DNA of 64,000 bases from Pelagibacteraceae bacterium (lineage in GTDB: Bacteria > Pseudomonadota > Alphaproteobacteria > HIMB59): NCBI GenBank assembly GCA_019651435.1, contig BOYI01000002.1, positions 186,001-250,000 on the forward strand. The letters are read 5' to 3'. A program made the position numbers and the translations under genes. Shown piece after piece: positions 25,413 to 50,613 of the stretch; the first letter of the stretch is position 1, and each line of letters begins with the position of its first letter. Below the pieces are notes generated by a model, which had not been told where the DNA came from, searched no databases, and saw only the letters and a list, made by a program, of their open reading frames with translations.

Positions 25413-25799
25413 CTAAGAGATTGTTAGATCAGCATTAATGATACTTCCATCTTGGATATCAATGTTGGAATATCGAATAGTACCTTTGATTTTGGCTGAA
25501 GATTTGATGTAGACATCCTTACCTTGAATATCCCCATCAACCTCTCCCTCGACAGTAATTTGGTCTGCTGTGACAGATCCTTTGACATAAGAGGATCTAC
25601 CAAGGTTAACTGTTTTTGCCTTGATGGTTCCAGTTATGCTACCATCAAAATTAATATAATCTTTAGCTTCTACAGAACCATGTATCTGTATATCCTGAGC
25701 TAGTGTCGATTGATTAACTTGATCCTCAGACGCGTGTGGAAAAGTAAATTTTTCTTCTGAACTATTTTGTTCTTTTTCTTTATTGCCAAAAATCGACAT
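25413..25799 (-). CDS. bactofilin (polymer-forming cytoskeletal protein)
   Basis: This 128-residue protein has an unstructured N-terminus and a right-handed beta-helix core of about 85 residues, with repeating short valine/glycine-rich strands: IHGSVEAKDYINFDGSITGT, VKGSVTADQITVEGEVDGDI, IKGTIRYSNIDIQDGS. Bactofilins polymerise without nucleotide and scaffold envelope enzymes. It begins by TAATG overlap with another bactofilin gene. Confidence 0.9.
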   Translation of the reverse strand: MSIFGNKEKEQNSSEEKFTFPHASEDQVNQSTLAQDIQIHGSVEAKDYINFDGSITGTIKAKTVNLGRSSYVKGSVTADQITVEGEVDGDIQGKDVYIKSSAKIKGTIRYSNIDIQDGSIINADLTIS

Positions 25800-26260
25800 T
25801 AAATATTATCCTCATTGCTTTCATTGGGCACATCTTCTTCTAAATTATTATTGTACACATGTTCTTCTACATTATTAAAAGAATGGACAACCCCTTTATG
25901 TTGAATTCGCCCTTGAACCCTTGCGCCATAGCTAACTTTAAGAGATGTATATTCTATAGTTCCTTTGATATCTGCTGATTGGTTAATGTTGAGCTGTTCA
26001 TCAGAGTCAATGGTACCCTCAACTTTTCCAGAAATATTTATATCACTACCGGTTATATCACCATTAAAAACACCTGTCTGAGAAACATTTATAGAGTCTG
26101 ATTTGATTTTACCGTTAAAGGTTCCTGCAATATCCGAATTCATAGCGCCATCAATTTTGCCTTCCATTCTCACACCAGAACCTATAACTAGTGTTTTCGA
26201 GTCATTTGAATTTAAATCGTTATTAACAATTTCTTGTGATTCATTTTCTGTTTCTGACAT
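25799..26260 (-). CDS. second bactofilin
   Basis: This 153-residue paralogue of the downstream neighbour has the beta-helix core VIGSGVRMEGKIDGAMNSDI, FNGDITGSDINISGKVEGTI and IKGTIEYTSLKVSYGARVQG. It has Asn/Glu-rich disordered ends at both sides. The two bactofilins are translationally coupled and may co-polymerise. They sit between the SBP gene and the oppositely oriented ATPase of the same transporter, so they interrupt an otherwise compact importer locus. Confidence 0.9.
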   Translation of the reverse strand: MSETENESQEIVNNDLNSNDSKTLVIGSGVRMEGKIDGAMNSDIAGTFNGKIKSDSINVSQTGVFNGDITGSDINISGKVEGTIDSDEQLNINQSADIKGTIEYTSLKVSYGARVQGRIQHKGVVHSFNNVEEHVYNNNLEEDVPNESNEDNI

Positions 26261-27460: not shown

Positions 27461-28414
27461 ATGGCAACAATCATTGATGGCAAAGCTTTCGCTGCCAAAA
27501 TCAGATCACAAGTTAAAGAAGATGCAGATAATTTAATAGCTAAAAAACAAGTAGATCCTTGTTTAGCAGTAGTGTTAGTAGGCGAAAATCCTGCCAGTAA
27601 AGTTTATGTCGGAGCTAAGACTAAAATGGCTGCTGAATGTAATATCAAAACTAAAGATTACAAACTTGATGAAAGCACAGATCAAGAAACTCTTCTTAAA
27701 TTGATCAAAAATGTTAAATGAAGATACTGATATTCATGGCATTTTAGTTCAACTCCTCTTCCAAAGCAAATTGATGAGAGAAGCGTTATTGATGCTATCG
27801 CTGTAGAAAAAGATGTTGATGGCTTTCATGCAATTAATGCAGGAAGGTTATCTATCGGTGGTGATATGCTCAAAAAAGCATTTATCCCGTGTACCCCTCT
27901 TGGTTCTTTATTGCTCTTAAAAGATAATGTGATGATCTTCTGGAAAAATGCAGTGGTTGTGGGTCGATCAAATATTGTAGGCAAACCCATGTCTCAACTT
28001 TTAATTGAAGAGTCTTGTACTGTTACCGTTGTGCATTCAAAAACAAAAAAAGTAGAGGCGATTTGTTCTCAAGCAGATGTCGTGGTCGTTGCTGCTGGAA
28101 GACCAGAGATGGTCAACGGTGACTGGTTAAAAGAGGGAGCAGTTGTCATTGATGTTGGAATAAACAGAGTGCCTGTTACAAAAGAAGATGGTAGTGAAGG
28201 AAGTAAGATCGTAGGTGATGTCGATTTCGAAAGCGCATCAAACAAGGCATCCAAGATTACTCCTGTACCAGGGGGCGTTGGTCCGATGACCATAGCTTGT
28301 CTTTTGAGAAATACGGTGACCTCTGCTTACAGACATGCAGGACTTGGAGATCCTAGAGGTACTGTCGACTCAGAGTCTCAAGATCAATACAAAGATAAAT
28401 ACATTAACCACTAA
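27461..28414 (+). CDS. folD: methylenetetrahydrofolate dehydrogenase/cyclohydrolase FolD (several compensating frameshifts)
   Basis: FolD interconverts methylene-, methenyl- and formyl-THF. The N-terminal catalytic region reads [20 protein letters not shown], with the active-site Lys in YVGAKTKMA. Homology then continues across shifted frames: [36 protein letters not shown], then [17 protein letters not shown] for NADP binding and [20 protein letters not shown]. Breaks occur near 27715, 27757 and 27925-27950. The overall span is exactly 318 codons, so the indels cancel out. It has a good GGGAG ribosome-binding site. Confidence 0.93.
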
Positions 28415-28860: not shown

Positions 28861-29353
28861 ATGTCAAATTCAAAAGATTCGCAGAAGAAATACAGTGTCG
28901 CTGCATATGCTTGGTTAATGTTTATCACAGATTACTATCGAAGAGTCAGTGATTTAGATTTGAACTTTGATGAAATGATGACTTTAAATACGGTTGTCAC
29001 TCAATGGCTTTATAAAGTTAATACCCAAGAACCTAAGTCAAGACAGGAAATTCATGATATGACCGATGATGAAATTGGAAAAACATTTTCAAGGTTCACG
29101 TCTTTCTGTTTTAAGTATTGCTAACATTCTTAATCAACCTAAAGAGTCAGTGCGAAGAAGAGTTCAAAAATTAATCGATTATCAATTAATCAAAAAAGAT
29201 ACTAACGGGGGTCTTACAGTTAGTGAAAACTATTTAAAACTAATTGGCACCTTTAGCAAACAAACCCAAAAAGATTTAACAAAACTTTTAAAAACTTATG
29301 ATCAACACGATGTAATCAATCCTCTAATTGAATTAGGAGAAACAGCTTTATAA
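28861..29353 (+). CDS. winged-helix/HTH regulator (one frameshift)
   Basis: The N-terminal 60 residues are helical (KYSVAAYAWLMFITDYYRRV). After removal of one G near 29079 (ATTGG to ATTG) the frame continues EKHFQGSRLSVLSIANILNQ then KESVRRRVQKLIDYQLIKKD and GGLTVSENYLKLIG, a clear helix-turn-helix with wing. The reconstructed length is about 163 residues. The family could not be named; the DNA-binding motif is of the MarR/GntR-like winged type. The stop overlaps the MFS transporter start (TAATG), suggesting the regulator and transporter act together. Confidence 0.75.
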
Positions 29354-30573
29354 TGAAAAAATTATTAGCATTTTCATTTTATGATGTGGGTAATTCTGTG
29401 TTCCCAATGATTGTGTTAGGCGCTTTGACATCAAGCTACTTTGTTAATCAAGTTGCAGATAATCCTCAAACAGGAACTGCTCTATGGCAATTAACAATTG
29501 GAATAGCTGGAATTTTAATCGCATTATTGATGCCCTACATAGGAACATTAGCAGATAGTGTAAAAAATGGCAGATTGACTTTGCTTCGTTTGTTTACTGT
29601 TATTTGTATAGGTTCAATTGCTCTATTCTGGTTTGTTCTGCCCTCATCAAACTACATCATTCTTGCTCTAGTAATTTTTCTAATTGGGAGCATGAGTTAT
29701 GAAGCCTCTAATGGTTTATACAATGCTAGTTTAAAAAGTTGTAGTACTTCAAACTTAACTTTTGGCTCAGGCATGGGTTTTGGATCAGGATATTTAGGGG
29801 GTGTAATAATTCTCGTCATACTTCTTCAGACCTTCATTTTACCAGAACAAAATTTATTGAATATCCCAACAGAGGGTCAGGCTCATTTAAGATTTGTACA
29901 TATTATTTTGGCACTATGGTTTTTAATTTTTTCTATTCCCTTACTTTTTTTATGTAAATTTAACAATACAAATTTTGAATCTAAAACTAAAGTAGCCACC
30001 AAAATTAAAGATTTAATTTGGAACAAAGGTCTCACGAACACAGGTAGATTTCTTTTTGCTAGAATGCTTTATGCAGACGGTCTAGTAATCGTCACCACTG
30101 GTATTGGAATTTTCGGGACTTCTGTTATTGGTCTCTCCATAAAAGAGATATTGTTGGCAGCGATACTCGCCAACATTAGTGGCGCCATCGGTTGTTATTT
30201 ATATGGAATTTTTTTTAAAAATGACAAGAAGATTATCTTATACAATCTTTTATTTTTAATTGTGGTTGTAATTGGTATTTCTATCAGTCAAACTCCCCTG
30301 CAATTCATCAGCTTAGCAATCATTGGTACCTTTTTTTCAGGTCCTCTTCAAAGCTCGAGCAGAGTCGTCATGGCCAACCTTACTCCGGATAATACACAAG
30401 GATTTGGTTTTGGAATGTTTACTTTATCAGGAAAAATAACAGCATTTGTTGGACCCATCTTGGCGGGACTATTGACATTTCTTATATCACAAAGAGTTGG
30501 TTTTGGTTTTTCGATTGTTTTACTTTTATTAGGTTTCTTTTTGATGATAAAGGTAAATTATAAAGATACTTAA
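29353..30573 (+). CDS. UMF1-type MFS transporter (Atg22-like)
   Basis: This 406-residue protein has about twelve hydrophobic helices. The N-terminus AFSFYDVGNSVFPMIVLGAL matches the UMF1 family (usual YDWANSAF). Further family features are MPYIGTLADSVKNGRLTLL, SYEASNGLYNASLKS and the C-terminal GPLQSSSRVVMANLTPD, FGFGMFTLSGKITAFVGP. UMF1 transporters are proposed to export small solutes or amino acids; the substrate is unknown. It is coupled to the upstream regulator, and its 3' end overlaps the convergent 305-residue ORF by 4 bp. Confidence 0.88.
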   Translation: MKKLLAFSFYDVGNSVFPMIVLGALTSSYFVNQVADNPQTGTALWQLTIGIAGILIALLMPYIGTLADSVKNGRLTLLRLFTVICIGSIALFWFVLPSSNYIILALVIFLIGSMSYEASNGLYNASLKSCSTSNLTFGSGMGFGSGYLGGVIILVILLQTFILPEQNLLNIPTEGQAHLRFVHIILALWFLIFSIPLLFLCKFNNTNFESKTKVATKIKDLIWNKGLTNTGRFLFARMLYADGLVIVTTGIGIFGTSVIGLSIKEILLAAILANISGAIGCYLYGIFFKNDKKIILYNLLFLIVVVIGISISQTPLQFISLAIIGTFFSGPLQSSSRVVMANLTPDNTQGFGFGMFTLSGKITAFVGPILAGLLTFLISQRVGFGFSIVLLLLGFFLMIKVNYKDT

Positions 30574-31487
30574 TAATTCAAAATCTGATCTCTTACCTGA
30601 TAGAATTCATTACTATTTCTAATTAAGGATAATCCTAAAGACTTATTTATTTTTTTATCACAACGTTTATAGGCTTTAATAAATGTTGAGTAAGGTGTAA
30701 AGCTTACTGATGGGGTTTGTAGTATGCCCTCCCAACAAAAAGTTTTTAGTTCAGCTTTTTCATCTTTCAAATTAAAGCCACTCAAATCTACACACTCAAA
30801 AAGCAGCTTTAAAATATTAATATAATAATCCAGTGGTATTTCATGCTGTTCAATTTCAGGAAATAAAGGCGTAGTAGCTTCTTGTGGTATATTGTGCGTA
30901 TCAGATAAATAATTACATTCTTCAGCAATAATATTGAATTCATTTAATATATCGTTTGCTGAGATATCATTTCCTAAGTTGTCTTTTAAAATTACTTCGC
31001 TTGGAGACATTTCATCTTTGAGTCGACTTTTTTTCATCGAGTCCTTAATTTCTTTTTTTATTTTTTGACAATGTTTTTCAATTTGTTTCAAACTATGAGA
31101 TAGCATTTTAATAGTTTGATGATTCATAACTTTTTTATTTTGAATAGAGAATAAACAATCAACTGCCTCTAGTTCTTCCGATATTTTTAAAAACTCTAAT
31201 TTTTGATATTGTTTGATAATTGGCTGTAGTTTGGAGAAAATTTTAATATCACTGGCCCTTTTATAATCCATAATATCGATAAATTTTTCGTAATCCGATA
31301 TAGTAGATTTTTTTAAATAAAGTCTATCTTTTAGAGTGTCTTCTATCTCCTCTCGATAAAGGTGATCAAAAGTTTTCTTTTGTTCTTTTTCTTCAATCCA
31401 TTTTGATTTAAAAAATGAACTAGGAGAAGCAGAATGACTTTGCTTTTTGCTCTCTGACTCTAATAATTTTTCGTGCAAGATGATCAT
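30570..31487 (-). CDS. unknown 305-residue helical cytoplasmic protein at the end of the secretion operon
   Basis: No family is recognised. The protein lacks signal peptide and membrane segments, is rich in Lys, Glu and Ser, and is predicted largely helical, with coiled-coil-like stretches around LSHSLKQIEKHCQKIKKEIK. It has five or so cysteines without a metal motif. It follows the M50-HlyD gene by 67 bp on the same strand and has no better neighbour, so it may be a cytoplasmic accessory of the export locus. The frame is intact over more than 900 bp in an indel-rich window. Confidence 0.65.
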   Translation of the reverse strand: MIILHEKLLESESKKQSHSASPSSFFKSKWIEEKEQKKTFDHLYREEIEDTLKDRLYLKKSTISDYEKFIDIMDYKRASDIKIFSKLQPIIKQYQKLEFLKISEELEAVDCLFSIQNKKVMNHQTIKMLSHSLKQIEKHCQKIKKEIKDSMKKSRLKDEMSPSEVILKDNLGNDISANDILNEFNIIAEECNYLSDTHNIPQEATTPLFPEIEQHEIPLDYYINILKLLFECVDLSGFNLKDEKAELKTFCWEGILQTPSVSFTPYSTFIKAYKRCDKKINKSLGLSLIRNSNEFYQVRDQILNY

Positions 31488-31554: not shown

Positions 31555-33657
31555 TTAAAAATTAAGCTCTCTTATCAATACAGAATACACTGTTTTATAA
31601 AGTTTCTCTGAAAACGAAATCGGTTTGACGGTAATTTGAGCATTGCCAAGAATTTTTTGATCAGAAAATTTTTCCTCGGAGATTACATTCATACTAATTA
31701 CGTAAAATGCTTCTTCAGATTGAATACCACCTGATGGGTTTTGTCTTGCAGCAATGGGGCCATCATACATCGACGTGACCATTGGATACAAATCAAAATT
31801 ATTTACTGGAGATTTACTGATGGATGCAATTTGGGCAACAAGCTCAATTTGACTATTATGAGGACTCGTAAATTTAACTTCATTGTCAGTCACAACATGG
31901 TCAATGTCTCTTTCAGATATAAAAGCAATAATTTTGTGAGAGTTTTTATTCACAATTGAAAAAAGAGGGTCTTCTTTGTTTACCCATTGATCCTCTTTGA
32001 GATGAAGAGAAGAAGTAATTTCACCACCAAAAGGTGATTTTATTTCTAACGAAGAAAGAATTTTTATTAAATTATCATATTGAGTTTCAAGTTTTTGTTT
32101 TTCACTTTTTAAAACCAATAATTCAGATCGAGATAGATCATCCTCTAGTGAGTTATCAATTTTAATATTAACTAAATCTATTTCTTCTTTTACTTGAGAA
32201 ATAGTTAAATTTAATTCTGGTGATTTAAGAGATACCAATAATTGACTATCTTCAACAAGTTGATTTTCTATGATGTAAATATCTTTGATCTGAGAATCAA
32301 TTGGCGCATATATAAATGTTGACTGATCTGCTTGAAAAATTGCTGGAATTTTTTGATAATTTTTCCATGGATAAAAAAATAAAAATATTAAAAATGCTAA
32401 AATAGCAACCGTTCTTAAAAGTTTTAAAGATAAAATAAATTTTGATTTTAATTTCCACCAAGCTAAAACTTCTTTTCCTATCGGTAGACCAATAAACCAA
32501 ATTATCTCCACAGCGAATAAAATAATTCCCAGTAATTTAAATGCGAAAAAGTAAACAAGTAGGGCAATACCTATAAAAAGAAAAAATCTATATACCCATG
32601 TGGACCAAGCATACAAGATTAATAAATTGCGTCGATGTGATTGCATTACCTCTGGAGGGTTTATATTCAAGCCAAATAAAATTTCTCTAAGCCTCCATTT
32701 AGCTAAAGCAAAAGCTCGGGGTTGAAGATTGTCCACTTTCAAATAATCAGCAAATACATAATACCCATCAAAACGCATAAAAGGGCTTATATTGATTAAA
32801 AGCGAAGATACCCAGCTTGTTGTGGCCACAAAAAAAGCAACGCTTTTGAATAATCCTGGTTCAGAGACTCCCCAAAAAAAAGTCGCGATTATGGCTAAAT
32901 GTAGCTCTGTGGAAATCCCAGCAAAATTGATAGTTAGTCTTTTTCGATGATCTCTTAGTCTCCATGCATTGGTATTATCTGTATAAAGAAAGGGGAAAAA
33001 AACCAAAAAAGCAATCCCCATTGAGTTTACATTACATCCAAAATTTTTTGCTGTAAATGCATGCCCTAATTCGTGGATAGCTTTAACAGCAACCAGAGAA
33101 AGGGCATAGAGCAATAGACCATTCCAATTAAAAAAATATAAGAATGTACTTTTAAATTCACTCCAGTTTTGAATGATTAAATATAAACCTACTAGTCCAA
33201 TAACATAAATTAATTTTCTAAAAAAATTAGTTCCAAAAAATTTTGCTATATTTAATGTCTGGTCAAGAAACTTGTCTGGTTTAATTAATGGAATACGAAA
33301 AAATAAGTAATTGTGTATGAGTTTTAATAACCAATGTTTTTGTTGACTTTGATATTTATGGATTAAAATTTTTACGTCTTCTGAATTTTGATGAATAATT
33401 AAATCATTTAACTTTAAAAATGATATAAAATCATTGAGTTGGTCTTCATGAATAGAAATTCCTTTTTTCTCAATTTCTTCAATAAAAAGTTTTGACTCAA
33501 CTCCAGCAATCCAATGTTTTAACATTCGAAAAGCGTTTAAGCCCAGAGTGAAATACTTATTTGTTAAACCATCATATAGCATCCATGAAGGAGAACCATC
33601 CTCCATCGCGGTGCCTGGAAAAATTTGTAGATCTTGTCTGATGTTTGGGGTGATCAT
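31555..33657 (-). CDS. site-2 protease (M50)-HlyD membrane fusion protein
   Basis: This 700-residue polytopic protein begins with about 110 cytoplasmic residues (WMLYDGLTNKYFTLGLNAFR) resembling a PqqD-like domain. The M50 core has the zinc motif AIHELGHAFTAKNFG (His195, Glu196, His199) and the distal ligand loop SPFMRFDGYYVFAD (Asp297), so the active site looks intact. Further helices run to about residue 440. The C-terminal 250 residues form a HlyD-like adaptor with lipoyl halves (FIYAPIDSQIKDIYI, EIKSPFGGEITSSL) around a coiled coil. It abuts the GAF-HlyD gene with no gap. M50 proteins are intramembrane proteases; the fusion to an export adaptor suggests coupled processing and transport. 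Confidence 0.9.
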   Translation of the reverse strand: MITPNIRQDLQIFPGTAMEDGSPSWMLYDGLTNKYFTLGLNAFRMLKHWIAGVESKLFIEEIEKKGISIHEDQLNDFISFLKLNDLIIHQNSEDVKILIHKYQSQQKHWLLKLIHNYLFFRIPLIKPDKFLDQTLNIAKFFGTNFFRKLIYVIGLVGLYLIIQNWSEFKSTFLYFFNWNGLLLYALSLVAVKAIHELGHAFTAKNFGCNVNSMGIAFLVFFPFLYTDNTNAWRLRDHRKRLTINFAGISTELHLAIIATFFWGVSEPGLFKSVAFFVATTSWVSSLLINISPFMRFDGYYVFADYLKVDNLQPRAFALAKWRLREILFGLNINPPEVMQSHRRNLLILYAWSTWVYRFFLFIGIALLVYFFAFKLLGIILFAVEIIWFIGLPIGKEVLAWWKLKSKFILSLKLLRTVAILAFLIFLFFYPWKNYQKIPAIFQADQSTFIYAPIDSQIKDIYIIENQLVEDSQLLVSLKSPELNLTISQVKEEIDLVNIKIDNSLEDDLSRSELLVLKSEKQKLETQYDNLIKILSSLEIKSPFGGEITSSLHLKEDQWVNKEDPLFSIVNKNSHKIIAFISERDIDHVVTDNEVKFTSPHNSQIELVAQIASISKSPVNNFDLYPMVTSMYDGPIAARQNPSGGIQSEEAFYVISMNVISEEKFSDQKILGNAQITVKPISFSEKLYKTVYSVLIRELNF

Positions 33658-34992: not shown

Positions 34993-35732
34993 AACAAGAC
35001 ACGACCACTCATGCCTGGCAATAAGGCAGGATCGGTCTCAGTGATAGTTCCCTTAAGTTGGATAGTTTGACTTACAGGATCTACATTAGCGCCTATGCCA
35101 CTGACAGAAGCACTAAACTCTTTTTGAATTTCATCGATATAAACTGTTATTGGATGTCCGATAGACAGCCAAGAAATCCATTCACTAGAGACCACCATCT
35201 CTAACTCCAAGACATCAGTTTGGATAATTTTCATTAATTCAACTTGTGGTTGAATTGTCTCAAAAGTATTCACCACAATTTCTTCAACTGCACCATCAAA
35301 TGGCGCTTTGATTTGACATCTCTCCACATTTAATTCAGCAATACGCAATTCGGATTTTGCTTTTTCGTACTCAGAGATAGAAAGTTCTAATTCATACTTA
35401 CCAATAGATCTCATCTGTAGCATCTGTTCGTCACTCTTTAGTTTAATTAAGGCACTGTTTGCATTGGCACTAACAACATCTTTTTGAGCTTCATATAAGC
35501 TACAATCAAATTGAATCAACAAATCACCTTTTTTAAATCTTTGCATCTCTTTGACAGCGATGTTGTCAATCCGTGCAGCCAGTTCACTTGACAAGATTGC
35601 TTCTTGTGATGCTACCACTAAGGCTCTTGACTCCATTACTTGAGCTTGGCTATAACCTGAACTCAAAAATAAAATTAATATAATACTAACTAGTAGCTTT
35701 GGTAAGTTTATCACCGTAATTTTCATATCCAT
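34989..35732 (-). CDS. periplasmic HlyD/RND-type adaptor protein
   Basis: This 247-residue secreted adaptor has a signal peptide-like start ([20 protein letters not shown]). The lipoyl halves are ILSSELAARIDNIAVKEMQR and CQIKAPFDGAVEEIVVN, enclosing a short alpha-hairpin (ANSALIKLKSDEQMLQMRS). The barrel follows and ends LLPGMSGRVLF. ATG 35732 or 35726 can serve as start. Its 5' end overlaps the giant protein's 3' end by about 47 bp, so adaptor and substrate genes are cotranscribed. Confidence 0.88.
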   Translation of the reverse strand: MDMKITVINLPKLLVSIILILFLSSGYSQAQVMESRALVVASQEAILSSELAARIDNIAVKEMQRFKKGDLLIQFDCSLYEAQKDVVSANANSALIKLKSDEQMLQMRSIGKYELELSISEYEKAKSELRIAELNVERCQIKAPFDGAVEEIVVNTFETIQPQVELMKIIQTDVLELEMVVSSEWISWLSIGHPITVYIDEIQKEFSASVSGIGANVDPVSQTIQLKGTITETDPALLPGMSGRVLF

Positions 35733-38700
35733 CAAATTCTAAATTTATTTGGTCTTGAAGTGAAGCAAACTCCACAATTTTTTCATTGATTTGTGGCTGA
35801 TCCATATTTAATGAGAGATCATCTGAAGTGAAATCTAACTCTATTTCAAGGGTTCTAACGTTTCCGTCCTCATCCTCAGCTAAAAGCTCTAAAGTGATGC
35901 TATCAATATTAGAAGGTGGTTTCGCTTGAATTTCACCAGTATTTCGATCAATAGCTATCCAACTTGGAAGTTGTGCGAGAGGGCTATCGATTTGACTAGG
36001 CAGCTGTATGCTATATTTAGAATTACTACTTAAATTCTCATCATTTATTTTTAATCTAAATAAGTCTCCTTCTCTTTCAATGTCTGTCAATTTTAATGTT
36101 GAAGGTTGGTCAGATTCATTTGTATCAGTAGTATTTTCCTGAGAGTTTAAAATATCAGATGAATTTAGGTTTTGGGTTCGATTAATGTCTGTTTCCCCGT
36201 TATTAGTTGCATTTAAAAATACTTGCCCACGATCATCAACTTGGACTTCGGTTTTTAAGGCGGCACTTCGATCAACAAATGGCTTGAGGTCTCTTTTTAG
36301 ACTTTGATCTTGTCGAACTGTATTTTTATCTAAGGTAACATTAATTTCTCGAGTGGTGTTATCTTTATCAATAGCAATAACTTTAACATCAATCGAATAG
36401 ATATTTTCAGGGAACTGAACAATCGTTTGACCAGTAGCAGGATCTACTTTTACCCAACTGGGAAGAGAAGAGCCGTCCTCAAGAGTTCCTGTGTATTGTT
36501 TAACGTTTAATCGATAATCATCTCCAATAGAAAAACCTAAAATAGTGCTATCCTGTACTCCAAAACGACCACTTTGATCGATATTTAACTCTTCCACAGC
36601 GACATCGATAACCTTCATTCCACCATTAAAGGTGTACTCTTTAACAATTGACTCAAGAGAACTGCCCACCTCTAAAGTCTCCATCTGAACACTTGGTCTT
36701 TCAGGAGCCTCTTCTCTAAACACCACAACTTGATCTTCAATAGCATCATCTATGGTTTTAGGATTAATTCTAATAGGCTTAGGTGGTTTTTCTCCTGGTT
36801 TGCCAGGTTTGCCCACAACAATAGTAAAGGTTTGTTGGGTAGAGAGATTACCGCCATCAGTTGCAGTTACAGTGAAAGTATAAGTTCCCTCAGGAAGACG
36901 ACCTACGACCTTTCCTGCATCATTAATGCTTAAACCTGCTGGCAGACCACTTGTTGTATAAGTAAGCTGACCGTAGGTATTATTTTTGGATCAGGATCAT
37001 CAAAAAAAGTCTTGGTTTGTATGACAATTTTTTGATTTTCAACTGCATTTACTGAGGAGGGCTAGTAGAAGTAGGGGCATCGTTTATACCAGTGACTGTA
37101 ATTTGTAATTCAGCCTTATCAGTACTAGTTCCATCAGAGATGGTATAGGTAAAATAATCTACTGCTGTCTCCAAAGGGGCTAAGGCTTTCGCGGCATCTG
37201 TATTGGCTGTATAGGTATAAGTACCATCAGAATTAAGAGTAAGGGTACCGTAAGTTCCAACAAGTGTTGATCCTATCGTTCCATCAGTGCCACTTCCATT
37301 TTCTCTTCCTGTTCGAATTTCGCTAACAGATGCTTCACCTACAGATAGAGCAGCACTGCCATTATCAGTATCGTTAGATAACAAACCTGCGCTTTCAACA
37401 CCTTTAGACAAGGTGCTGCCAGCATCTACTGCACCAGTATCAGTTACAGCAACCACTTCATTGTCAGATCCATTAATTGTAATTGTAAGAGTGGCTGTAT
37501 CTGTTCCACCATTGCCATCAGAGATTGTATACGTAAAGACATCAGTCTCGCTGGAACCATCAGCGATACTATCAGCTGCATCTTGATCAGCAATGTAGGT
37601 ATACGATCCATCAGCTCCAATTGTAAGTGTACCGTAAGTTCCAACAATGGTTGTGCCATCAGAAAAAGTTGTACTTGAACTAACCGTATCACTATTACCA
37701 TTGGTATGAGAAATATTTGTAACTACTAGGCTTGCACTAGCATCTGGATCAGTATCATCATTAAGCACATCATCTTGAGCGCCCCTTACAGTAAGTCTTT
37801 CATCCTCATTAACACTGTCCGTATCATTAACAGCAGTTGGTGCATCATTGATACCAATAACTGTGATTGTAATAACAGCAATGTCGGTAGCAGTGCCATC
37901 GCTGACCGTGTAATTAAAAGTATCCGTTACAGTGTCATCAACATCCAGAGCATCAGCTGCATCTTGATTAGCAACATAAGTATAAGAACCGTTAGCGTTG
38001 AGTGTGAGTTGACCATACGTGCCTGTTAATGCTTGTTCCCACAGTTCCTGCAGTACCAGAGATCCTTCAGAGTTGACCCCACACGAACAGCAGTAACTGT
38101 CAAAGAAGCAGAGTCATCAGCATCGCTATCTGTATGAGAGCTTGAACTAGTGTCGATTACATCACCTGAGTGTTCTCCTGTGGCGTCATAAGAGCCTGAA
38201 ACATTAGCATTTGCGCTATTTGCAACGGTTAGAGTGCTATCTTCTGCAATCACACCCACATCATTTTGAGCAACTGGGTCATCATTTATACCAGTAACAG
38301 TGATCGTAATAGTTGCAGTTGTGGTATTTGCTCCATCAGAAACTGTGTAAGTAAAAACATCTGTTGCTGTATCATTTAAATCCAAATCATCAGCTGCAGA
38401 TTGATCAGCAGTGTATGTATAAGAACCATCAGCACCGATAGTCAAAGTACCGTAAGTTCCTGTTACTGTTGTGCCTCCACTTGCATAAGTGCTTCCCTCA
38501 GAGACTGTGGATGTAGAACCACCACTAGGTGCGATTGCTGTGACTGTCAAAGAGTCTGAGTCATCCGCGTCGGTGTCATCGTAAAGAGCGTCATCTTGTG
38601 AACCTGTTTTAGTAACTGTCGCATCCTCGTTAACACTATCTGTGTCGTCTACAGCGACTGGAGTATCATTCACGCCAACTACTGTGATCGTAATAACCGC

Positions 38701-41700
38701 TATGTCTGTTGCATCACCATCACTAACTGTATAGTTAAAGTAATCATAAACGATATCGCCTGCATCTAAGTCATCTGCAGCAGATTGGTTTGCAACATAT
38801 GTATATGAACCATTAGCATTCAGTGTTAGCTGACCATAAGTCCCCGTTAAAGCAGAGCCGACAGTGCCAGCAGTACCCGATCCCTCAGAGCTTCCTGTTC
38901 TCACAGCTGTTACTGTTAAAGTCTCTACATCAACGTCAGTGTCATAAGAACTTGTATTGCTTGTATCAATAACATCACCTGAATGCTCGGCGTCAACATT
39001 AATTAAACTAAAAGGTGTTGTTAATGTGTACTCAAATACTGATTTGTTTGTCGTCCCTAAAACAAATAATTTAGTACCATCATGGTTAAAGCTTATAGCC
39101 TTCGGGGCACTATCTTGTGAGCTCACATCTAAAGCCCCAACAAAAGAAGCAGTGGAAACATCAAATCCTAATGTCAAATCATATTCGTTAATGTCATTTC
39201 CTTGATTTCCAACAACATACATTTTTGTTCCATCGCTATTAAATGTTAGTCCGTTAGGGGCAGTGTCTTGAGAAGACACATCAAAACTATCTACAAAGGA
39301 GGCTGTTGATACATCAAACCCAGTTGTAAGAGTGTATTCATTAATATCGTCTCCTCCATTACCGGCAATAAACATTTTAGTTCCATCATTATTGAACGCT
39401 AAGCCTGTTGGTGAGTTCTCTTGTGAGCTAATGTCAAAACTGTCAACAAAAGAGGCGGTGGATACGTCAAAAGCTGTTGATAATGTATATTCATTTACAT
39501 CATCGCCTAATACACCCACAACAAACATTTTGGTTCCATCATTGCTAAAAGCCACATCGCGAGGACCAAGCTCTTGAGAGCTAATATCAAAACTGTCTAC
39601 GAAAGAAGCAGTGGATACGTCAAAGGCGGTAGAAAGGGTATATTCATTGACATCATCTCCATTTGATCCAATGACAAACATTTTAGTGCCGTCATTATTG
39701 AATCTAAATCCTTGAGGAGTGAATTCTTGAGTGCCGACGGAAAAACCATCGACATAAGAAGTAGCACTTACGGCACTAGCATTATCACCATCGCTCACTG
39801 TCAAAGTGGCATCCTCTTCAACCGTTCCTGTGTCGTTTCTGGCAACAGGCGCATCATTAGAGCCATTCACTGTAATTGTTATAGTAGCAGTTGCCGTAGC
39901 ACCATTTTCATCAGTGACTGTATAAGTAAATGTATCCGTTGCTGTCTCTGTGTCATCAAGAGCGTCTGCTGCAGCTTGATCAGCTGTATAAGTATAAGAT
40001 CCATCTGCACCGATCGTAAGAGTACCGTAAGTTCCTGTTACTGAAGTACCGCTGCTATCATAGGTACTTCCAGAAGAAACATTCGAAGAGGATCCACCGC
40101 TTGGTTGAATTGCAGTCACAGTAAGAGTGGCTGACTCATCAGCATCGGTATCGTCATCGAGAACATCGTCTTGAGCTCCTGTTTTTGTTACAGTCTGATT
40201 TTCGGTTACAACGTCAGTATCATCTACTGCAACAGGGGTATCGTTAACACCTAAAACAGTAATCACAATATTGGCAGTTGTTGTAGCGGTGCCATCTGAG
40301 AGGGTGTAGACAAAAGTATCAGTAACACTGTCATTAAGATCGAGAGCATCAGCAGCCGCTTGGTCTGCTACATATGTATAAGAACCATCAGCACCAATTG
40401 TTAAAGTACCATAGGTACCAGTTACACTTGTTCCACTACTGTTATAAGAGCTGCCTGAAGAAACAGCAGAGTTAGAACCACCATCTTTTTTGATTTGAGA
40501 TACACTTAAAGAAGCAGAAGCGTCCGCATCACTGTCTTGGTGTGTACTACTACTTGTATTAATCACATCACCGGAGTGCTCACCGGTTGCGTTATAAGTG
40601 CTGCCAGAGTCATCAGTCTCATTAGCATTGTCGCCATTTGCAACAGTTAAAGTAGCGTCTTCTTCAATCACACCAACATCATTTTGTGCAACTGGTGTAT
40701 CGTTTATACCAGTAACGGTGATAGTAATTGTTGCTGTCGCCGTAGCCCCATTTTCATCAGTAACTGTATAAGTAAAGACATCGTCTTCTGTATCACCAGC
40801 ATCCAATGCATCAGCAGCAGATTGATCTGCTGTGTATGTATAAGATCCATCTGCACCAATCGTAAGAGTACCATATGTTCCAGTTACTGAAGTACCGCTG
40901 CTATTATATGTGCTTCCAGAGGAAACATTCGAAGAGGAGCCGCTGCCTGGTTGAATTGCGGTAACTGTCAAAGTAGGTGACTCATCAGGATCAGTGTCAT
41001 CTGTGAGTACATCATCCTGAGCACCTGTCTTGGTAACTGTTCCGTCTTCATTGACACTATCTGTATCGTTTACTGCAGTAGGGGTATCATTAATACCCAA
41101 CACAGTAATTGTTAAAGTTGCTGAGTCAGTGAGTGGCGAGCGAGGAGAGCTTGCGTCGTCCGTAATAGTATAAACAAAAGTATCAGTAACACTGTCATTA
41201 AGATCGAGAGCGTCAGCAGCCGCTTGGTCTGCTACATATGTATAAGAACCATCAGCACCAATTGTTAATGTTCCATAAGTGCCAGTGACAGAAGTACCAT
41301 TACTGTTATACGAGCTGCCTGAAGAAACCGCAGAGTCAGAACCTGAACTTGTTCTAATTTGGGTGATAGTAATTGTATCGCTATCTGCATCTGTATCGTA
41401 GTGTGTGGTAGAACTAGTATTAATTACATCACCAGAATATTCACCGGTGGCATTATAAGAACCTCCCGACTCATTAGTTAGCGTTAGCCCCGTCGGTAAC
41501 AGTTAACGTGCCATCTTCTACGATGACACCCACATCATCTCGAGCTACAGGAGCGTTGTTAGTATTTCCATCGTCTCCTAAAAGAGTGATAACGATATTG
41601 GCAGTCCCAGTCGAGCCATTGCCATCAGAAACTGTATATGTAAATGTATCTGTAAGCGTCTCTCCTGCATCAAAACCAGAGATATCAGATTGAGCAACAT

Positions 41701-44700
41701 ACTTATAAGAACCATCGGCACCTATTGTTAAAGTACCGTAGGCACCAGTTACAGCAGTTCCGCTGCTATTATAAGAGCTTCCAGAGGAAACAGTAGAGTT
41801 AGAGCCACCATCTTTTTTGATGTGCGTGATTGTTAAAGTGTCAGAAGTGTCTGGATCACTGTCTTTGTGAGAACTAGATGTAGTATCAAGGACGTCACCA
41901 GAATGCTCACCGGTAGCATCATAGCTTCCAGAAACATTAGCGTTTGAACCATTAGCAACTGTTAAAGTGCTACCTTCCATGATCACACCCACATCATTTT
42001 GTGCTGTTAGGTTATCGTTTTGACCTAAAATTGTAATCGTAATGTTAGCAGTTGTTGTATCTGTTCCATCACTTAAAGTATAAACAAAGACATCAGTTGC
42101 ACTTTCTCCATCTGCAATTCCATCAGCCGCATCTGCAGTAGCAGCATAAGTATAAGAACCATCTGCTCCTATTGTTAATGTTCCGTAAGTGCCAGTGACA
42201 GAAGTACCGTTACTATTGGTAGTTCCTGAAGAAACTGATGAGTTAGATCCACCATTTTTTTTAATTTGAGTTATGGTTAAAGAAGCTGAGGCGTCTGCAT
42301 CACTATCTTGATGTGTGCCGCTACTTGTATTTATTACATCACCAGAATGCTCACCTGTTGCATTAAAGGTACTGCCAGAGTCATTGGTCTCGTTTGCATT
42401 AGCGCCATCAGAAACAGTCAAAGTGCTGTCTTCATTTATCACACCTACATCATTTTGTGCAACGGGAACATCATTGACACCAAAAACTTTTATTTCGATA
42501 ACTGCTGTGTCTGTCAAGCGCCATCAGTGACAGTATAATTAAAAGAGTCTGTTACTGTATCGCCTACATCTAAAGCATCCGCTGCTGCTTGATTAGCAAC
42601 ATATGTGTATGAACCATTCGAGTTTAAAGTTAATTGACCGTATGTACCAGTGAGTGCTGACCCTACTGTACCTGCAGTACCTGAACCCTCAGTTGAACCT
42701 GTTCGAACTGCACTTACAGTTAGTGTGTCTCCATCAACATCCGTATCAGTTCCCGTATAAGTTGTATTGATTACATCACCCGAGTGTTCACCTGTGTCGT
42801 CATATCTTTGGTTTGCAGTAAAGTATTGATTATCTCCATCAGCAACAGTTAAGGTAGCATCCTCATTAATAGCACCATAATCATTAGCAGCCACAGGGGC
42901 ATCATTAGCACCCAGAATTGTAATAGTTAGTGTTGCAGTTGTTGTCGCTGTTCCATCAGAAAGGGTATAGACAAAAACATCAGTAGCGCTTTCTCCTACA
43001 TCTAATGGGTCAGCTGCATCTTGAGTTGCAGCATAAGTATAAGATCCATCAGCACCAATAGTTAAGTGTACCATATGTTCCAGTGACCTGTGTACCACTA
43101 CTATTATAAGAACTTCCCGAATGCTACAGCAGAATTAGATCCACCATCTTTTTTAATTTGAGTTATCGACAAAGATGCAGAGTCATCAACATCTGAGTCT
43201 TTATGAGAGCTGAGAGCTAGTATCCATTAAATCACCAGAATTTTCTCCAGTGGCATCATAAGTACCGGAGTTAAAGTTGCATTTGCACCATTAGCCACCG
43301 TTAAAGTGCCATCTTCCACGATCACACCCACATCATTTTGAGCGGAAGGGGCATCATTGATACCAATCACAGTAATGGTAATCACCGCTATATCTGTAGC
43401 TGTGCCATCACTAACAGTGTAATTAAAAGAGTCTGTTACAACGTCGCCTGCATCTAGATCATCTGCAGCAGTTTGATTAGCAACATAAGTATAAGAACCA
43501 TTCGAGTTAAGTGTTAATTGACCGTAAGTGCCTGTCAGAGCAGAACCGACGGTACCAGCAGTACCTGATCCCTCAGAACTTCCTGTTCTCACAGCTGTTA
43601 CTGTTAAAGTCTCTACATCAACATCAGTATCGCGAGTAGAGGTGTTACTTGAGTCAATAACATCACCTGTATGTTCACCTGAAATATTTACTAAACTAAA
43701 TGGAGAAGTAAGTGTGTACTCGTTTACATCATTTCCTCCATTGCCAAGAATAAACATTTTTGTACCATCGTTGTTGAAGGCTATTGCTCTTGGATTACCT
43801 TCTTGACCTGAAACATCAAAAGTACCTACAAAGCTTGCGGTTGACACATCAAAGCCAGTGGAGAGGGTATATTCATTGACGTCATTGCCAGTATTTCCAA
43901 TAACAAACATTTTCTTGCCATCGGTGCTGAACGTTAAACCAGTAGGTTCAGTGTCTTGTGAGGCAACACTGAAATTACTATCATAAGACGCTGTAGATAC
44001 ATCAAAGCCAGTGGAGAGGGTATATTCGTTAATATCATCACCGGTTATTCCAACGACAAACATTTTAGTGCCGTCACTATTAAATGCTAAATCTGATGGA
44101 TTATCTTCTTGGGAACTAACACTAAAACTATCTACAAAACTTGCAGTTGAAACATCAAAACCTGTGGAAAGGGTGTATTCATTTACGTCATCACCATCAT
44201 AACCAGTAAGAAACATTTTTGTTCCATCATTGTTAAATGCAATTCCTGTAGCTCTACCATCTTGGGATGAGGTACTAAAGGCATCAACAAAAGAGGAAGT
44301 CGAAACATCAAAGGCTGTAGAGAGTGTGTATTCATTTACTGCATCAGAACTAAATCCGACAACAAACATTTTGGTTCCATCGTTATTAAACGCTAATCCT
44401 GTTGGCGTACCTTCTTGAGAAGAGCTATCAAAACTGTCAACAAAAGACGCTCCAGCAACAATGCTTGTTGCCATTACCATCACTACTAACTGTAAGTGTA
44501 TCGTCTTCATTAATTGTTCCAGTATCATCTCTTGCAACTGGTGCATCATTAGCGCCCAGAACTGTAATGGTTAAATTAGCTGTTGTGATGGCAGTACCAT
44601 CAGAAAGGGTATAAACAAAAGTATCAGTAGCTGACTCTCCTGTATCTAGAGCATCAGTGGCATCAGTAGTTGCAGCATAAGTATAAGAACCGTCAGCACC

Positions 44701-47700
44701 GATAGTTAGTGTTCCATAAGTTCCAGTGACCTGTGTTCCATTACTATTATAAGAACTACTCACTGCAACTGTAGAATTAGAACCACCACTTAATTTAATA
44801 TGAGTTATGCTTAAAGATGCAGAAGCATCCGCATCGGAGTCAGTATGGCTTGCGGAACTAGTATCAATTACATCACCTGAATTTTCTCCTGTAGCATCAT
44901 AAGAGTCTCCTGTTAAAGTTGCGTTCGCACTATTAGCAACAGTTAAAGTGCTGCCTTCCACGATCACACCCACATCATCTTGAGCAGAAGGGGCATCATT
45001 GATACCAATCACTGTAATTGTAATAGTGCCTATATCTGTTCCTCCATTGCCATCACTAATTGTGTAATTGAAAACATCAGTAGACTTCATCATTTACATC
45101 AAGAGCATCTGCTGCTGTTTGATTAGCAACATAAGTATAAGAACCATTTGCATTGAGTGTTAACTGACCATAAGTTCCTGTTAGCGCTTGGCCTAGTGTT
45201 CCAGCTGTACCTGATCCCTCAGAAGATCCTGTTCGAACAGAGCTTACAACAATGGTATCTCCATCTGCATCAGTATCATAATGAGTAGTGGAACTTGTAT
45301 TAATGACATCACCGGAATGCTCGCCTGATATATCAATTGTGGTACCTTGACCAGGAACCAAGTTTTTGTTTGAACCATCACTAACTGATAGGGTTTCGTC
45401 CTCTGCTATAACACCCACATCATTTCGAGCAACTGGCGCTGTATTACCAACACCGATCACTGTAATTTTTAATTGCGCTGTGTCTGTTGCTGTTCCATCA
45501 GAGACAGTGTAAGTAAAATAATCTATCACTTCATCTCCTGAACCCAACCCAGAGATACTGCTGTTTGCTGTATAAGAATAAGAACCATTAGAATTAATAG
45601 TCAGAGCACCATACGTTCCAGTTAAAGATGAACCCACACTACCTGAGGTGCCACTACCACTTTCTTGTCCTGTTCTAATTCCTGTGATTGATAAGCTGGC
45701 GCTGGCGTCTGCATCTGAGTCACTGTGAGAACTAGAGCTTGTATCCATCACATCACCAGTGTGTTCACCAGTAGCATCATAAGATCCTGAAACATTAGCA
45801 TTATCGCCATTTGAAACTGTTAAAGTACTGCCCTCAGTGATTAAACCTTCATCATTTTGAGCAACTGGGGTGTCATTGGCGCCTAATATGTAAATTCTTA
45901 TCACACCAGTATCGGTATCTGTCCCATCACTGACTGTGTAATTAAAATAATCAGAAACAGTATCACCATCATCTAATGCATCTGCTGCATCTTGATTTGC
46001 TACATAAGTATAGGAACCATCAGCAGCTAATGTGAGCTGACCATAGGTACCTGTTAATGCAGATCCTATTGATCCTGCTGTGCCCGACCCTTCAGTAGAA
46101 CCTGTTCGAATAGCAGTGATCGTATGAGTAGGAGAGGCATCGGGGTCTGTATCGTTTGCAGAAATATCTCCTGAGTGTTCATCATGTGTATCGTAGGAAC
46201 CAGAGAGGTTTTGACTTTCTCCATTCGTAACAGTTAGAGTAGCATCTTCGGTCACAACACCATAGTCGTTCACAGCGACGACATCATCGTTAACACCAAT
46301 AACTCTTATTGTTATGACAGCTGTATCTGTTTGGCTTCCATCGTAGACTGTATAATTAAAATAATCATAAACGGTATCCCCTGCATCAAAAGCATCGGCT
46401 GCTGCTTGATTAGCTACATAAGTATAAGAACCATTGGAGTTAAGGGTTAGCTGACCATACGTACCTGTCAGAGCTGATCCAACAGAGCCAGAGGAACCTG
46501 ATCCTTCGGTGCTTCCTACTCTAACTGCATTAACAGTTAGTGTGTCTCCATCAGCATCTGTATCGTATGAGTCGGTGTTACTGGTATGAATAACGTCACC
46601 TGAATGCTCCCCATTTGTATCATAAGAACCGGTAGCACTTTTATTTGCTCCATCAGATACAGTTAAGGTAGCGTCTTCATTGACTACACCATCATCGTTT
46701 CGAGCGACTGGTGCGTTAGTACCAGCGTCGGTGAATACCCTGATGATATCACCATGAGTAGCTCCGTTATTAAAACCTATATATAAAGTATTAGAGTCCG
46801 TATCGACACCAAACCAATCATGTTTATAGCCGCTCGGTTTACTGCTGCTGGTAACATTTGTGCCCCATGTCCATTTTAATTTTTCAGTACTATAAGCATT
46901 GTCTCCACCACCGTGATCTCTTTCAGTGTGATAAGTAGCACCACTTTTGCTAACATTAGTATACTGGACAATATTATCCATATTGAACCAAACACCTCTA
47001 ATTTCATTCTCAAATGTTATTGATCTAATCGTATTTCTTCCTGAGTTTTCAGTAGCATAAACGTAGTACACGTTCATGGGGGTTGAGGCTGCATTATAAG
47101 AGGTTGTACCAGAAGTAATATTAGGGCCAGCTGTTTGAACTCCACTATTAGACTCCTCAAAACCTGTTGAGAGGCTATTGGTCTTATAAAACGAATAGGT
47201 ACCTGAAGTTACGGTTCTCTCATAAGTAATCACATATGGTTTATATCCATCGGAGTGATTAGAAGCAGAGGATGCGGTTCCTGCATCACTGGTACCAGCT
47301 CTTAAATTAGTTCCTGTGTTTTCTACAACTCCATTTAAAGAAGAAATACCTGTTTGAAGAAGAAAAGAGTTATAATCAACTACCTCAATGCCTTTGGTCT
47401 CAACAATACCGTAATTGTGTTCAAGTTCCCAATCACCTCCTTGACCTGTGATGTCATCAGAAGCCGCAATATCCGCTTGTGTGATATTTCCAATTTGTTG
47501 AAGTAATAATTTTCCTTGCTCGCCTTGAGCTAAGTTACAACCATAAAATAAAAGATCGCCGTTTTGTGTTAGAGAGCTTCCAATGGATTGTAATGTGCTG
47601 CTAAAAGAATTAATAGTGTCAGCGTTTAAAATAGAATTACCTAATACTACCTGTCCTGTGCTTGCGTGTCCTATTATATGAACAGCATCAATATCACTTT

Positions 47701-48036
47701 GACCCTGTAAAACATTTTGCATTTTTATAAATCCATTTTCATTAGAGTCGATGAGATAAATGGATTTAGAAGAGTCAATTGCATCAACGATAGTTTGATA
47801 ATTGTCTACACCACTATCAATAAAAACTATTTCTTTTCTAGAGTTTGAATTTTCAATAATGGGAGTTAAATCTGAGGAAAGATTTGTGAGGAATCCGATT
47901 GAGTTTGGGATGATTGTTGTTCATCGAGTAAATCAATTGCTTCACCGGCAGTATAAATCGCAGCACCATCGAACATAATCCTTGGCTCCAACAACTGAAT
48001 GTGTAGCTGTGGATAATTTTTATTATCTTTGTCCAA
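35686..48036 (-). CDS. giant VCBS/cadherin-like surface protein with LEPR-XLL and DUF4347 (about 4,100 residues, many frameshifts)
   Basis: The start is TTG 48036 ([13 protein letters not shown]), directly followed by [12 protein letters not shown], the LEPR-XLL motif. Next is a DUF4347 domain (about 47850-47360: [45 protein letters not shown]), and then a unique 200-residue region. About 19 VCBS-type units follow ([16 protein letters not shown] ... FTYTVSDG ... [16 protein letters not shown]), two propeller-like inserts, a He_PIG-like domain (37010-36810) and two CADG-like domains in the last 376 residues. No GGxGxDxLx RTX repeats and no obvious C-terminal secretion signal are seen. Breaks near 47900, 45085, 44450, 43230, 43100, 42515, 41475, 38030-38080 and 37000-37065 each resume in a neighbouring frame. 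It is likely an adhesin exported by the adjacent adaptor genes. Confidence 0.9.
38990..39770 (-). repeat. five 51-residue propeller-like repeats inserted in the VCBS array (copy 2)
   Basis: There are five tandem units of about 153 bp: [51 protein letters not shown]. They resemble beta-propeller blades ([16 protein letters not shown]). The block sits between the [11 protein letters not shown] linker and the EHSGDVID that normally follow each other in a VCBS unit. Confidence 0.85.
43690..44455 (-). repeat. five 51-residue propeller-like repeats inserted in the VCBS array (copy 1)
   Basis: This has the same architecture as the block at 38990-39770: five units such as [40 protein letters not shown]. 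It sits at the equivalent point of another VCBS unit, ending [16 protein letters not shown]. Two homologous inserts at equivalent sites imply duplication of a VCBS-plus-propeller module. Confidence 0.85.
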
Positions 48037-48110
48037 AACCCGTTTTCCTCTTCATACTATAGCTAATAAGTGGATAATACAATAAAATCAGGGTTATTTT
48101 TGAATTTATT

Positions 48111-48123: not shown

Positions 48124-48190
48124 CCATTTTTATATTGTCTGCATAATTGAAATTATGAGAATTTTATCATGCATTTTTGCGGGAGAAATA

Positions 48191-50613
48191 ATGAGGTTAT
48201 TTAAAGCTATATTTGTGGCGTCTCTTATATTATTAGTGGGGGCATGTTCAGTCGAACTCCTGAACCACTAATTAAAGAAGAAGTACAATTATCAGCTCAA
48301 GAAGACTATGAATTATTAAAAGAAACGACCGCTAATGCCCCAATTGAGATTGATTTATATCAAGCGATTGCCATTGCCATTAAAAATAACCGAGAACTTC
48401 GCATTCAAGTCATGGACTCAGCCCTTAGCCAAGGTCAAATTGATGTCGTTAAGTTTGATATGCTTCCCAAATTATCAGCTAACGCTGGTTATAAAGTTTT
48501 AGAAAACATCCCGCCTCTACCAGTGTCAGCATGGTACGAAAAGACAGCGATGGAAATGAAATTACTGGACAGACAACAAGCGCTAACGCCTAGGAGATAG
48601 TCCCAGTTATTCAGTTTCTCAAGAAACACCTTCAAGACGACTGATATAGGATTTACTTGGAATGCTTTAGATTTTGGTTTGTCTTATGTTAGAGCAGGTC
48701 AACAAGCAGATAAATATTTAATCTCAAAAGAGCTAGAGCGAAAAGCAATTCACAATTTAACAAAAGAAGTTATTTATGCGTATTGGAAAACTTTATCTGC
48801 TGATGAATTATTAGCTCAAATTAATCCTTTAATGGATAGAGTCAATAAAGCCTTAGATGACTATGAGTATATCGAAGAGCTTTTAATTTCATCCCCGATG
48901 GACGCGTTGCTTTATCAAAAAGAATTACTCGACGTTGCCCAAATATTAAATACTCAGCGTCGAGCTTTAATGGACTCACGTGCACAGTTATCAAATCTTT
49001 TAGGATTAATGCCTGATCAAGAATTTGTTTTAGTTAAAACGGATCAGCCTTTAACAGAGTTAGATATGAGCCTAGAAGAACAAGAAGAAGCAGCATTATT
49101 TTCTCGACCTGAGCTTTTAGAAGTTCGCTACCAAGAAAAAGTTACTGCTCAAGAAGCTCGAGCATCAATGCTATCACTATTTCCTTCCCTTACATTTAAT
49201 GCCACTTGGACATATGACTCCAATAAATATTTATTAAATAAGGATAATACAGAATATGGGGCTGTATTTGGGGTTAATTTATTGAATATTTTCCAGGCTG
49301 GAAATATTAATGATGTAAATAAAATCAATGAAAAAATTATCGAAGAACAGAGATTAGCTTTATCGATGGCTGTGCTTTCTCAGGTACATATCGCGAACAT
49401 TAATTATGCTCAAAGTTTAAGAGAGTATAGTAATGCCAAACATTATTTAAATGTTGCTCAGAGAATTAATGAGCTTATAGCTAACGCCAAAAAATTTCAA
49501 GATTTGGAGAATTAGAAGTGATTAGAGAAGAGGCAAGTCTTTTAGTAGCCAGATTAAGAAATGATATTGCTTATGCGAACTTCAATACAGCTTAGGTACC
49601 TTTTACTCTTCAGTTGGAATGAATTTGTACCAGATGATCTGGCACAAGTTTCTGATACAGAGCTTGCCGTAGCATTAGAAGATAATCTTAATAGATGGAC
49701 TAAAAATTATAATTCATTTATCACCATGCCTATTAATGAACAAAATCCTATTTTTGAACAAACAACTAAAATAGCAGCTGGTAATGTCAGTGAATTTTAT
49801 GATTTTGTTGAATATAAATTTGCATTTGATGAAACAACTTTTTATTTAGAGGGAAGTGGAAAAACTCATTATGACGTCCAACTTGCCAATGGGGATAGTC
49901 TTCCACCTTGGATAGTCTTTTTGCCTTCTCAATATATGTTTGTCGGCAATCCACCTCAAACTTCCGGATCAATTGATATCAAACTCACCGCTAGTAATGA
50001 CGTAGTTTCTTTGAGCGATACATTTACTTTAACTTGGGATAAAAGCACTGCTGATTCAAAATCGGATGGAGAAAGTCAAAGCGATGATTTTATTATTAAT
50101 CAAGAGTTGCTCGATGAATTAAACAAAGCAATTGATGAAAAGATATTAGAGGTAAAAAAACCTCTTCAAGAAATCAATGAAGAACAACTAGATAATCTTG
50201 TTGCAGCTTTAAATGATAAAGAGGCAGGGAAAATCAATAATCTTATTGAAGAAATTTCAGACTCTAGTTTTATAATCAAGCCAAAACCAAAACCAAATAA
50301 AGAGGTAGTAATTGCCGCCTTAGAAGAAAGTTTATCTAATCAGATTGAATCCTTAACTTCTTATAGCTCATCTCAATCGACCTATATTCAGGTTGGTGCT
50401 TTTAGAAAAGAAAATGTGTCTTTGAGGATTGCTGACGATATCTCCAATAAACTGGGAACCACTGTAGAAGTCATACCTACTTTAGTATCCGAGCCTGTTA
50501 TGTATCGAATATTAGTCGGTCCTGAACACAAAGATAACATCATTGAAACTATTGCTGATTTGATGGAACTTGGTATTTCTGACTATTTCTCACCACGGTT
50601 AAACTTACATTAG
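48191..50613 (+). CDS. TolC-like outer-membrane lipoprotein fused to CADG-like and SPOR domains (frameshifted)
   Basis: The start is ATG 48191 after GGGAGAAATA. MRLFKAIFVASLILLVGACS is a lipoprotein signal with lipobox LVGAC. A 1-nt break follows at about 48250. The OMF domain includes IEIDLYQAIAIAIKNNRELR, WNALDFGLSYVRAGQQADKY and FSRPELLEVRYQEKVTAQEA. Breaks near 48590-48640 and at 49510 and 49595-49645 are bridged by continuing homology (REEASLLVARLRNDIAYANF, TALGTFYSSVGMNLYP). The frame then runs into a CADG-like domain (about 49790-50035: GDSLPPWIVFLPSQYMFVGN) and a C-terminal SPOR domain (50385-50600: STYIQVGAFRKENVSLRIAD, YRILVGPEHKDN). SPOR domains bind denuded peptidoglycan glycans. 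It is likely the outer-membrane duct of the locus, about 800 residues. Confidence 0.85.

Follow-up and report, generated by a model that had tools for sequence, protein, structure and literature searches.

The closest described relatives of the locus analyzed here are the secondary SecA_DEAD/peptidase_M50/GAF-HlyD loci of Planctomycetes, Proteobacteria and others, for which Kamneva et al. (2015, PMC4452313) proposed a type I secretion system (T1SS)-like function with SecA as the ATPase and the M50 protein as a possible pore. M50 proteases are also found in RiPP pathways, where one intramembrane enzyme, EpeP, is believed to combine cleavage and export of the epipeptide EpeX (PMC10885120). The LEPR-XLL proteins (NF012209) are a family named from sequence only; LEPR-tagged proteins rank with the largest that bacteria encode; the longest ORF matched has 19,427 codons, and we found no established exit route for these proteins from the cell in the literature searched.

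The window, a 64,000-nucleotide stretch of a Pelagibacteraceae genome, contains a gene (Table 1) in which an M50 protease is fused to a HlyD adaptor, within a cassette that also encodes a giant protein, a TolC-family channel and two further adaptors. The fusion belongs to a group of homologues, clade A, whose loci resemble those of Kamneva et al. in having an M50-HlyD fusion beside a GAF-HlyD adaptor together with HlyD/TolC parts and no ABC transporter, but differ in having no dedicated SecA, in the linked TolC and RND-type small adaptor, and in a giant with an MFD[AG]A rather than an LLSAD leader. The M50 core is common to the fusion and to the RiPP proteases (EpeP, the daptide HExxH protease NF041824 and TglG), although the fusion differs from these in its HlyD part, in a substrate that is probably a giant protein, and in that no peptide-modifying enzymes are conserved with it; the NF041824 profile matches residues 95-384 at 123 bits, under its cut-off of 300. 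TolC, adaptor and giant repeat protein are likewise shared with the giant-adhesin T1SS of the LapBCE and SiiCDF type, but the cassette has no ABC ATPase, three adaptors, an N-terminal rather than C-terminal conserved tag, and an inner-membrane M50 protein. The giant carries the same leader as the LEPR-XLL family, and the motif is here tied to a specific machine, with two subtypes told apart. Two candidate experimental precedents were set aside: descriptions of the Pectobacterium MRP type I adhesin place it, with LapG, in a T1SS and we found no sign that it uses the cassette, and the Methylomicrobium S-layer T1SS has a PrtD-type ABC transporter and is different.

Existing annotations call relatives of the fusion HlyD-family or site-2 protease proteins, and Kamneva et al. 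have described the sister locus (PMC4452313). As far as the literature searched shows, no earlier work had defined the SecA-less clade as a cassette, linked it to the LEPR leader, recognized the homology to PqqD or distinguished subtypes of the leader; the analysis ties the LEPR tag to one machine and suggests a domain that may read it. We favor, with moderate rather than strong confidence, the reading that the fusion forms the core, in the inner membrane, of a type-I-like exporter for giant repeat proteins, in which the PqqD-like domain would read the leader and the M50 protease would probably cleave it.

Table 1. Features of the M50-HlyD cassette (positions in the window).
Feature	Position	Strand	Remarks
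PqqD-like/M50 metalloprotease/HlyD adaptor fusion	31555..33657	-	one intact 700-codon ORF, 700 aa
HlyD/MacA-like adaptor module, residues about 432-680	31618..32364	-	Pfam, profile and fold searches
Third zinc ligand Asp297 in NxxPFMRFDGYY	32767..32769	-	invariant in 171/171 homologues
HELGH zinc motif, residues 195-199	33061..33075	-	H, E and H invariant in 171/171 homologues
PqqD-like (RRE-fold) N-terminal domain, residues about 23-95	33373..33591	-	hhalign against PqqD; bbb-aaa order in model
Second adaptor: predicted cytoplasmic GAF-like fold, one membrane helix, HlyD module, 444 aa	33658..34992	-	abuts M50 gene, zero gap
Small RND-type periplasmic adaptor, 248 aa	34989..35735	-	TIGR01730 over cut-off; 4-nt overlap with next gene
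Giant protein gene: LExR leader, DUF4347, cadherin/Ig repeats	35686..48039	-	split into many frames in assembly
DUF4347 domain of giant	47393..47830	-	PF14252, E 3.3e-47
LEPR leader ([10 protein letters not shown]) at giant's N terminus	47938..48006	-	NF012209, E 5e-4; motif at 47991
TolC-family outer-membrane channel, divergent	48163..49515	+	one in-frame TAG in assembly

Architecture of the M50-HlyD fusion

The plus strand across 31555-33657 is full of stops, and the protein read from the minus strand has Pfam matches above cut-off to Peptidase_M50 (residues 185-281, E 7.8e-10) and HlyD_3 (residues 539-629, E 8.7e-13), together with a match to HlyD_D23 (residues 448-614, E 1.1e-7). The N-x-x-P...D-G context expected around the distal aspartate ligand of M50 proteases is present as N289, P292, D297 and G298. 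An AlphaFold2 model built with 46 sequences (mean pLDDT 86.4, pTM 0.68) has a beta-beta-beta-helix-helix-helix N-domain, a polytopic core and a C-terminal lipoyl/alpha-hairpin/barrel module following the membrane anchor, as in HlyD proteins. Its membrane helices include residues 144-163, 178-205, 237-264, 269-289, 340-371, 374-402 and 411-428, and the HExxH motif falls within helix 178-205, a membrane position typical of M50 enzymes. From helix counting, a cytoplasmic N-domain and a periplasmic adaptor, we infer a topology of seven membrane helices with the N-domain in the cytoplasm, the HlyD module in the periplasm, and the HExxH motif and D297 towards the cytoplasmic side.

In fold searches the HlyD module matches MacA (Z 15.6, rmsd 5.8, 219 residues aligned), and the matches of the fusion are mostly filled by this part; the searches covered mostly HlyD modules and carry nothing on the M50 or N-domain folds. 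A profile search gives a match to the site-2 protease mjS2P (3b4r) at E 1.4e-4. A PDB search with the single fusion sequence returned coiled-coil matches by chance only, and no relatives were found in viral contigs.

Pfam gives no PqqD match in the N-domain. A PDB search with the N-domain profile had no significant match (the RRE protein TfuB1 scored E 0.7), and PqqD was therefore tested by profile-profile alignment. Against a profile of 28 true PqqD (PF05402) domains from other alphaproteobacteria, hhalign reports a 96% probability and E 3.5e-9 over 73 columns, while 20 column-shuffled PqqD profiles score E 0.04-0.76 and unrelated profiles E 0.18 or worse. By this homology the domain is a possible reader of the giant's leader. 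An earlier note, made from the letters of the window, had described the protein as a PqqD-like start, HELGH at residues 195-199 with the aspartate of MRFDGYY at 297, and a lipoyl adaptor after the last membrane helix. All three parts hold up: the motifs lie in an intact minus-strand ORF, the adaptor is recovered both by the HlyD Pfam matches and in the AlphaFold2 model, and the PqqD match (96%, E 3.5e-9) stands clear of its shuffled controls (E>=0.04).

Conservation of the protease site

Homologues were drawn from close relatives (61-63% identity), plasmid records (28-37%) and genome collections; one genome scan used peptide patterns containing the zinc ligands and is hence biased, whereas the profile search was not so restricted. 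Full-length homologues with the same architecture are found in hundreds of genomes, so the fusion is not a chance product. The alignment of 171 homologues includes 22 divergent sequences from the unrestricted profile search, and H195, E196, H199, N289, D297 and Y299 are invariant throughout (171/171), the divergent sister clade included. Within the main clade, the mean majority identity falls from 0.66 in the M50 core to 0.46 in the N-domain and 0.40 in the HlyD part. The claim of the earlier note that the zinc-protease site is intact is thus borne out (His195, Glu196, His199 and Asp297 in 171/171): the loss of zinc ligands that the note named as its refutation is not seen. The comparison it had suggested, of the zinc ligands with the HlyD part, places the M50 core (0.66) above HlyD (0.40).

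The cassette and its two clades

Upstream of the fusion and on the same strand lie the GAF-HlyD adaptor, the small RND-type adaptor and the giant, with TolC divergent. The GAF-like fold of the second adaptor is suggested by a structure model, Pfam having no GAF match there. The giant in the window is broken into eight or more frames and TolC has its in-frame TAG, whereas the ORFs are intact in relatives (for example, 2274 aa in L046). Frame breaks occur in the giant (35686-48039), TolC (48163-49515), folD (27461-28414) and a small regulator (28861-29353), and the secA of the source genome, on contig C1, is in three pieces; because other genes of the genome (folD, secA) are broken too, sequencing error is likelier than decay as the cause of the broken giant and TolC frames. 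Immediately downstream of the fusion gene, an ORF of 305 aa (30570-31487, minus strand) has no Pfam match and no relative in the compared cassette loci, and a bactofilin gene (PF04519, E 3.7e-21) lies at 25799-26260 on the minus strand.

The same five components – giant DUF4347/cadherin-repeat protein, TolC, small adaptor, GAF-HlyD adaptor and M50-HlyD fusion – are present in Azospirillum, Kosakonia, E. coli plasmids, Variovorax, Burkholderia, Eleftheria, Niveispirillum and Magnetospirillum. The conserved giant-TolC-MFP1-MFP2-M50HlyD cassette spans the Alpha-, Beta- and Gammaproteobacteria, Nitrospira and SAR11, and its genes are found together in most of 80 genome loci. Single-cell and metagenome genomes of Pelagibacteraceae (SAR11; L049-L060, L063 and L119) carry it, which is surprising for streamlined cells: even small-genome Pelagibacteraceae keep the M50-HlyD/giant system. 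Genes annotated as 'tail fiber protein' adjoin the cassette in Kosakonia (L022:14125-16232), Burkholderia (L041:2824-3438) and Niveispirillum (L042:3510-4409).

TolC and adaptors are present in the locus, as in a T1SS, but a dedicated ABC ATPase is not a conserved partner in any consistent form: among 99 loci, generic ABC matches are scattered and of different kinds, and save for these no further conserved family lies beside the cassette. Matches to the family profile split into clade A, with E <1e-190 and including the window's fusion, and clade B, at about 1e-75 to 1e-105. The order GAF-HlyD, M50-HlyD, SecA is seen in 16 of 21 clade B loci, with one more having a weak 50-bit SecA match only; clade B is thus the sister clade, and its locus is the one described by Kamneva et al. 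No SecA was found in about 100 clade A loci; the SecA_DEAD gene that marks the loci of Kamneva et al. is missing from these loci. The source genome has a single SecA, on another contig than the fusion. At about 69% completeness this genome may still hold a distant pump, but what is seen across many complete genomes speaks against a dedicated one linked to the cassette.

The clade B gene order, and the roles earlier proposed for M50 (pore) and SecA (ATPase; PMC4452313), would suit a T1SS-like exporter that draws its energy from SecA, a dedicated one in clade B and the housekeeping one in clade A, with the M50 part acting mainly as pore or scaffold and proteolysis being secondary. We consider this unlikely, since every homologue retains the full set of catalytic residues, for which a mere pore would have no use, and since the clade A loci are without SecA. 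In the exporter that we favor, the protease site itself would have a role.

The giant proteins and their leader

The giants of the cassette begin with a basic stretch followed by LE[PASQEK]R-x-[ML]-[FYL]-D-[AG]-[AS]; no Sec-like hydrophobic core is seen in these leaders, in a comparison with signal peptides. Among 397 Pseudomonadota genomes, NF012209 (LEPR-XLL) matches 38 at E<=1e-3, and all 38 carry the M50-HlyD fusion; at E<=0.01 the fusion is present in 47 of the 48 LEPR genomes, and at 0.05 in 64 of 76. DUF4347 is associated with the fusion in the same genomes (counts 67/16/19/295; Fisher p 1e-42, uncorrected for relatedness), and occurs in 19 sampled genomes with no detected fusion. The pattern within the genus points the same way as the Fisher values: among 40 close relatives, LEPR is found in 12 of the 14 genomes with a full-length fusion and in none of the 26 without, and the two fusion-bearing genomes with no LEPR match are 55-57% complete. 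At the extreme of size, a LEPR leader starts the ORF of 19,427 codons (G100:C115:112465-113224, L209).

Two leader subtypes can be distinguished, MFD[AG]A in clade A giants and LLSAD in those of the sister clade. Leader position 8 is Asp in 38/38 clade A-linked giants and Ser or Asn in 8/10 clade B-linked ones (some being close relatives and hence non-independent). As read from these leaders, the LEPR subtype follows the linked machine; the leader is short, and its tie to the PqqD-like domain is correlational.

By eye, the giants also have in common a weak pattern, F/L-x-x-Q-[LIV], some 30-60 residues before the C terminus (as in L022, L044 and L054), and this could instead be a type-I-like signal. 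With adaptors and TolC as in a T1SS, one might then picture the giant leaving by a classical type I route through its C-terminal signal and the M50 protease acting later, in N-terminal trimming, surface release or quality control. No ABC transporter is consistently linked, however, and it is the N-terminal motif that is conserved and tracks the machine, so that this route seems quite improbable to us.

A proposed one-step exporter

The invariant zinc ligands, the PqqD homology, the conserved cassette, the co-occurrence with LEPR and the tracking of leader subtypes together support the reading as a one-step exporter, for which the likely substrate of the fusion is the adjacent giant LExR-tagged protein. 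We infer its recognition, cleavage and energy source as follows. The cytoplasmic PqqD-like domain would bind the N-terminal LExR-x-M-F-D-[AG]-A leader of the giant, by analogy with RRE domains, which bind RiPP leaders. The M50 site, near the cytoplasmic face, may then cut at or near the leader and so release or admit the chain; EpeP, with its presumed double role in cleavage and export, offers a precedent (PMC10885120). The periplasmic HlyD module, the small adaptor and the GAF-HlyD adaptor would dock TolC, and the giant would leave in one step. Candidates for the driving force are the housekeeping SecA or the proton-motive force, clade A having no linked ATPase. A bolder version, which we offer tentatively and regard as doubtful, would put the protease in place of the pump: a chain of PqqD-like reader, M50 and adaptor that captures LExR giants in the cytoplasm and passes them through TolC with no dedicated ATPase.

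The earlier note had further suggested cleavage of a membrane-inserted segment coupled to export. The fused adaptor, together with the TolC and the two further adaptors of the cassette, supports a coupling of the fusion to export; the M50 target is no less likely to be a soluble N-terminal leader than a membrane-inserted segment.

Regulated intramembrane proteolysis is a common role of M50 enzymes, and this background, with the GAF-like domain of the partner adaptor, would fit a regulatory site-2 protease that cleaves a membrane-bound regulator and has the HlyD part as sensor; we think this very improbable, given that conserved neighbors in the 99 loci include neither an anti-sigma factor nor a regulator and that the partners are export parts. 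That the M50 part is a catalytically dead scaffold is scarcely credible, because all ligands and the catalytic Glu are kept in 171/171 homologues and conservation along the protein is highest in the M50 core, and our analysis turned up no support for it.
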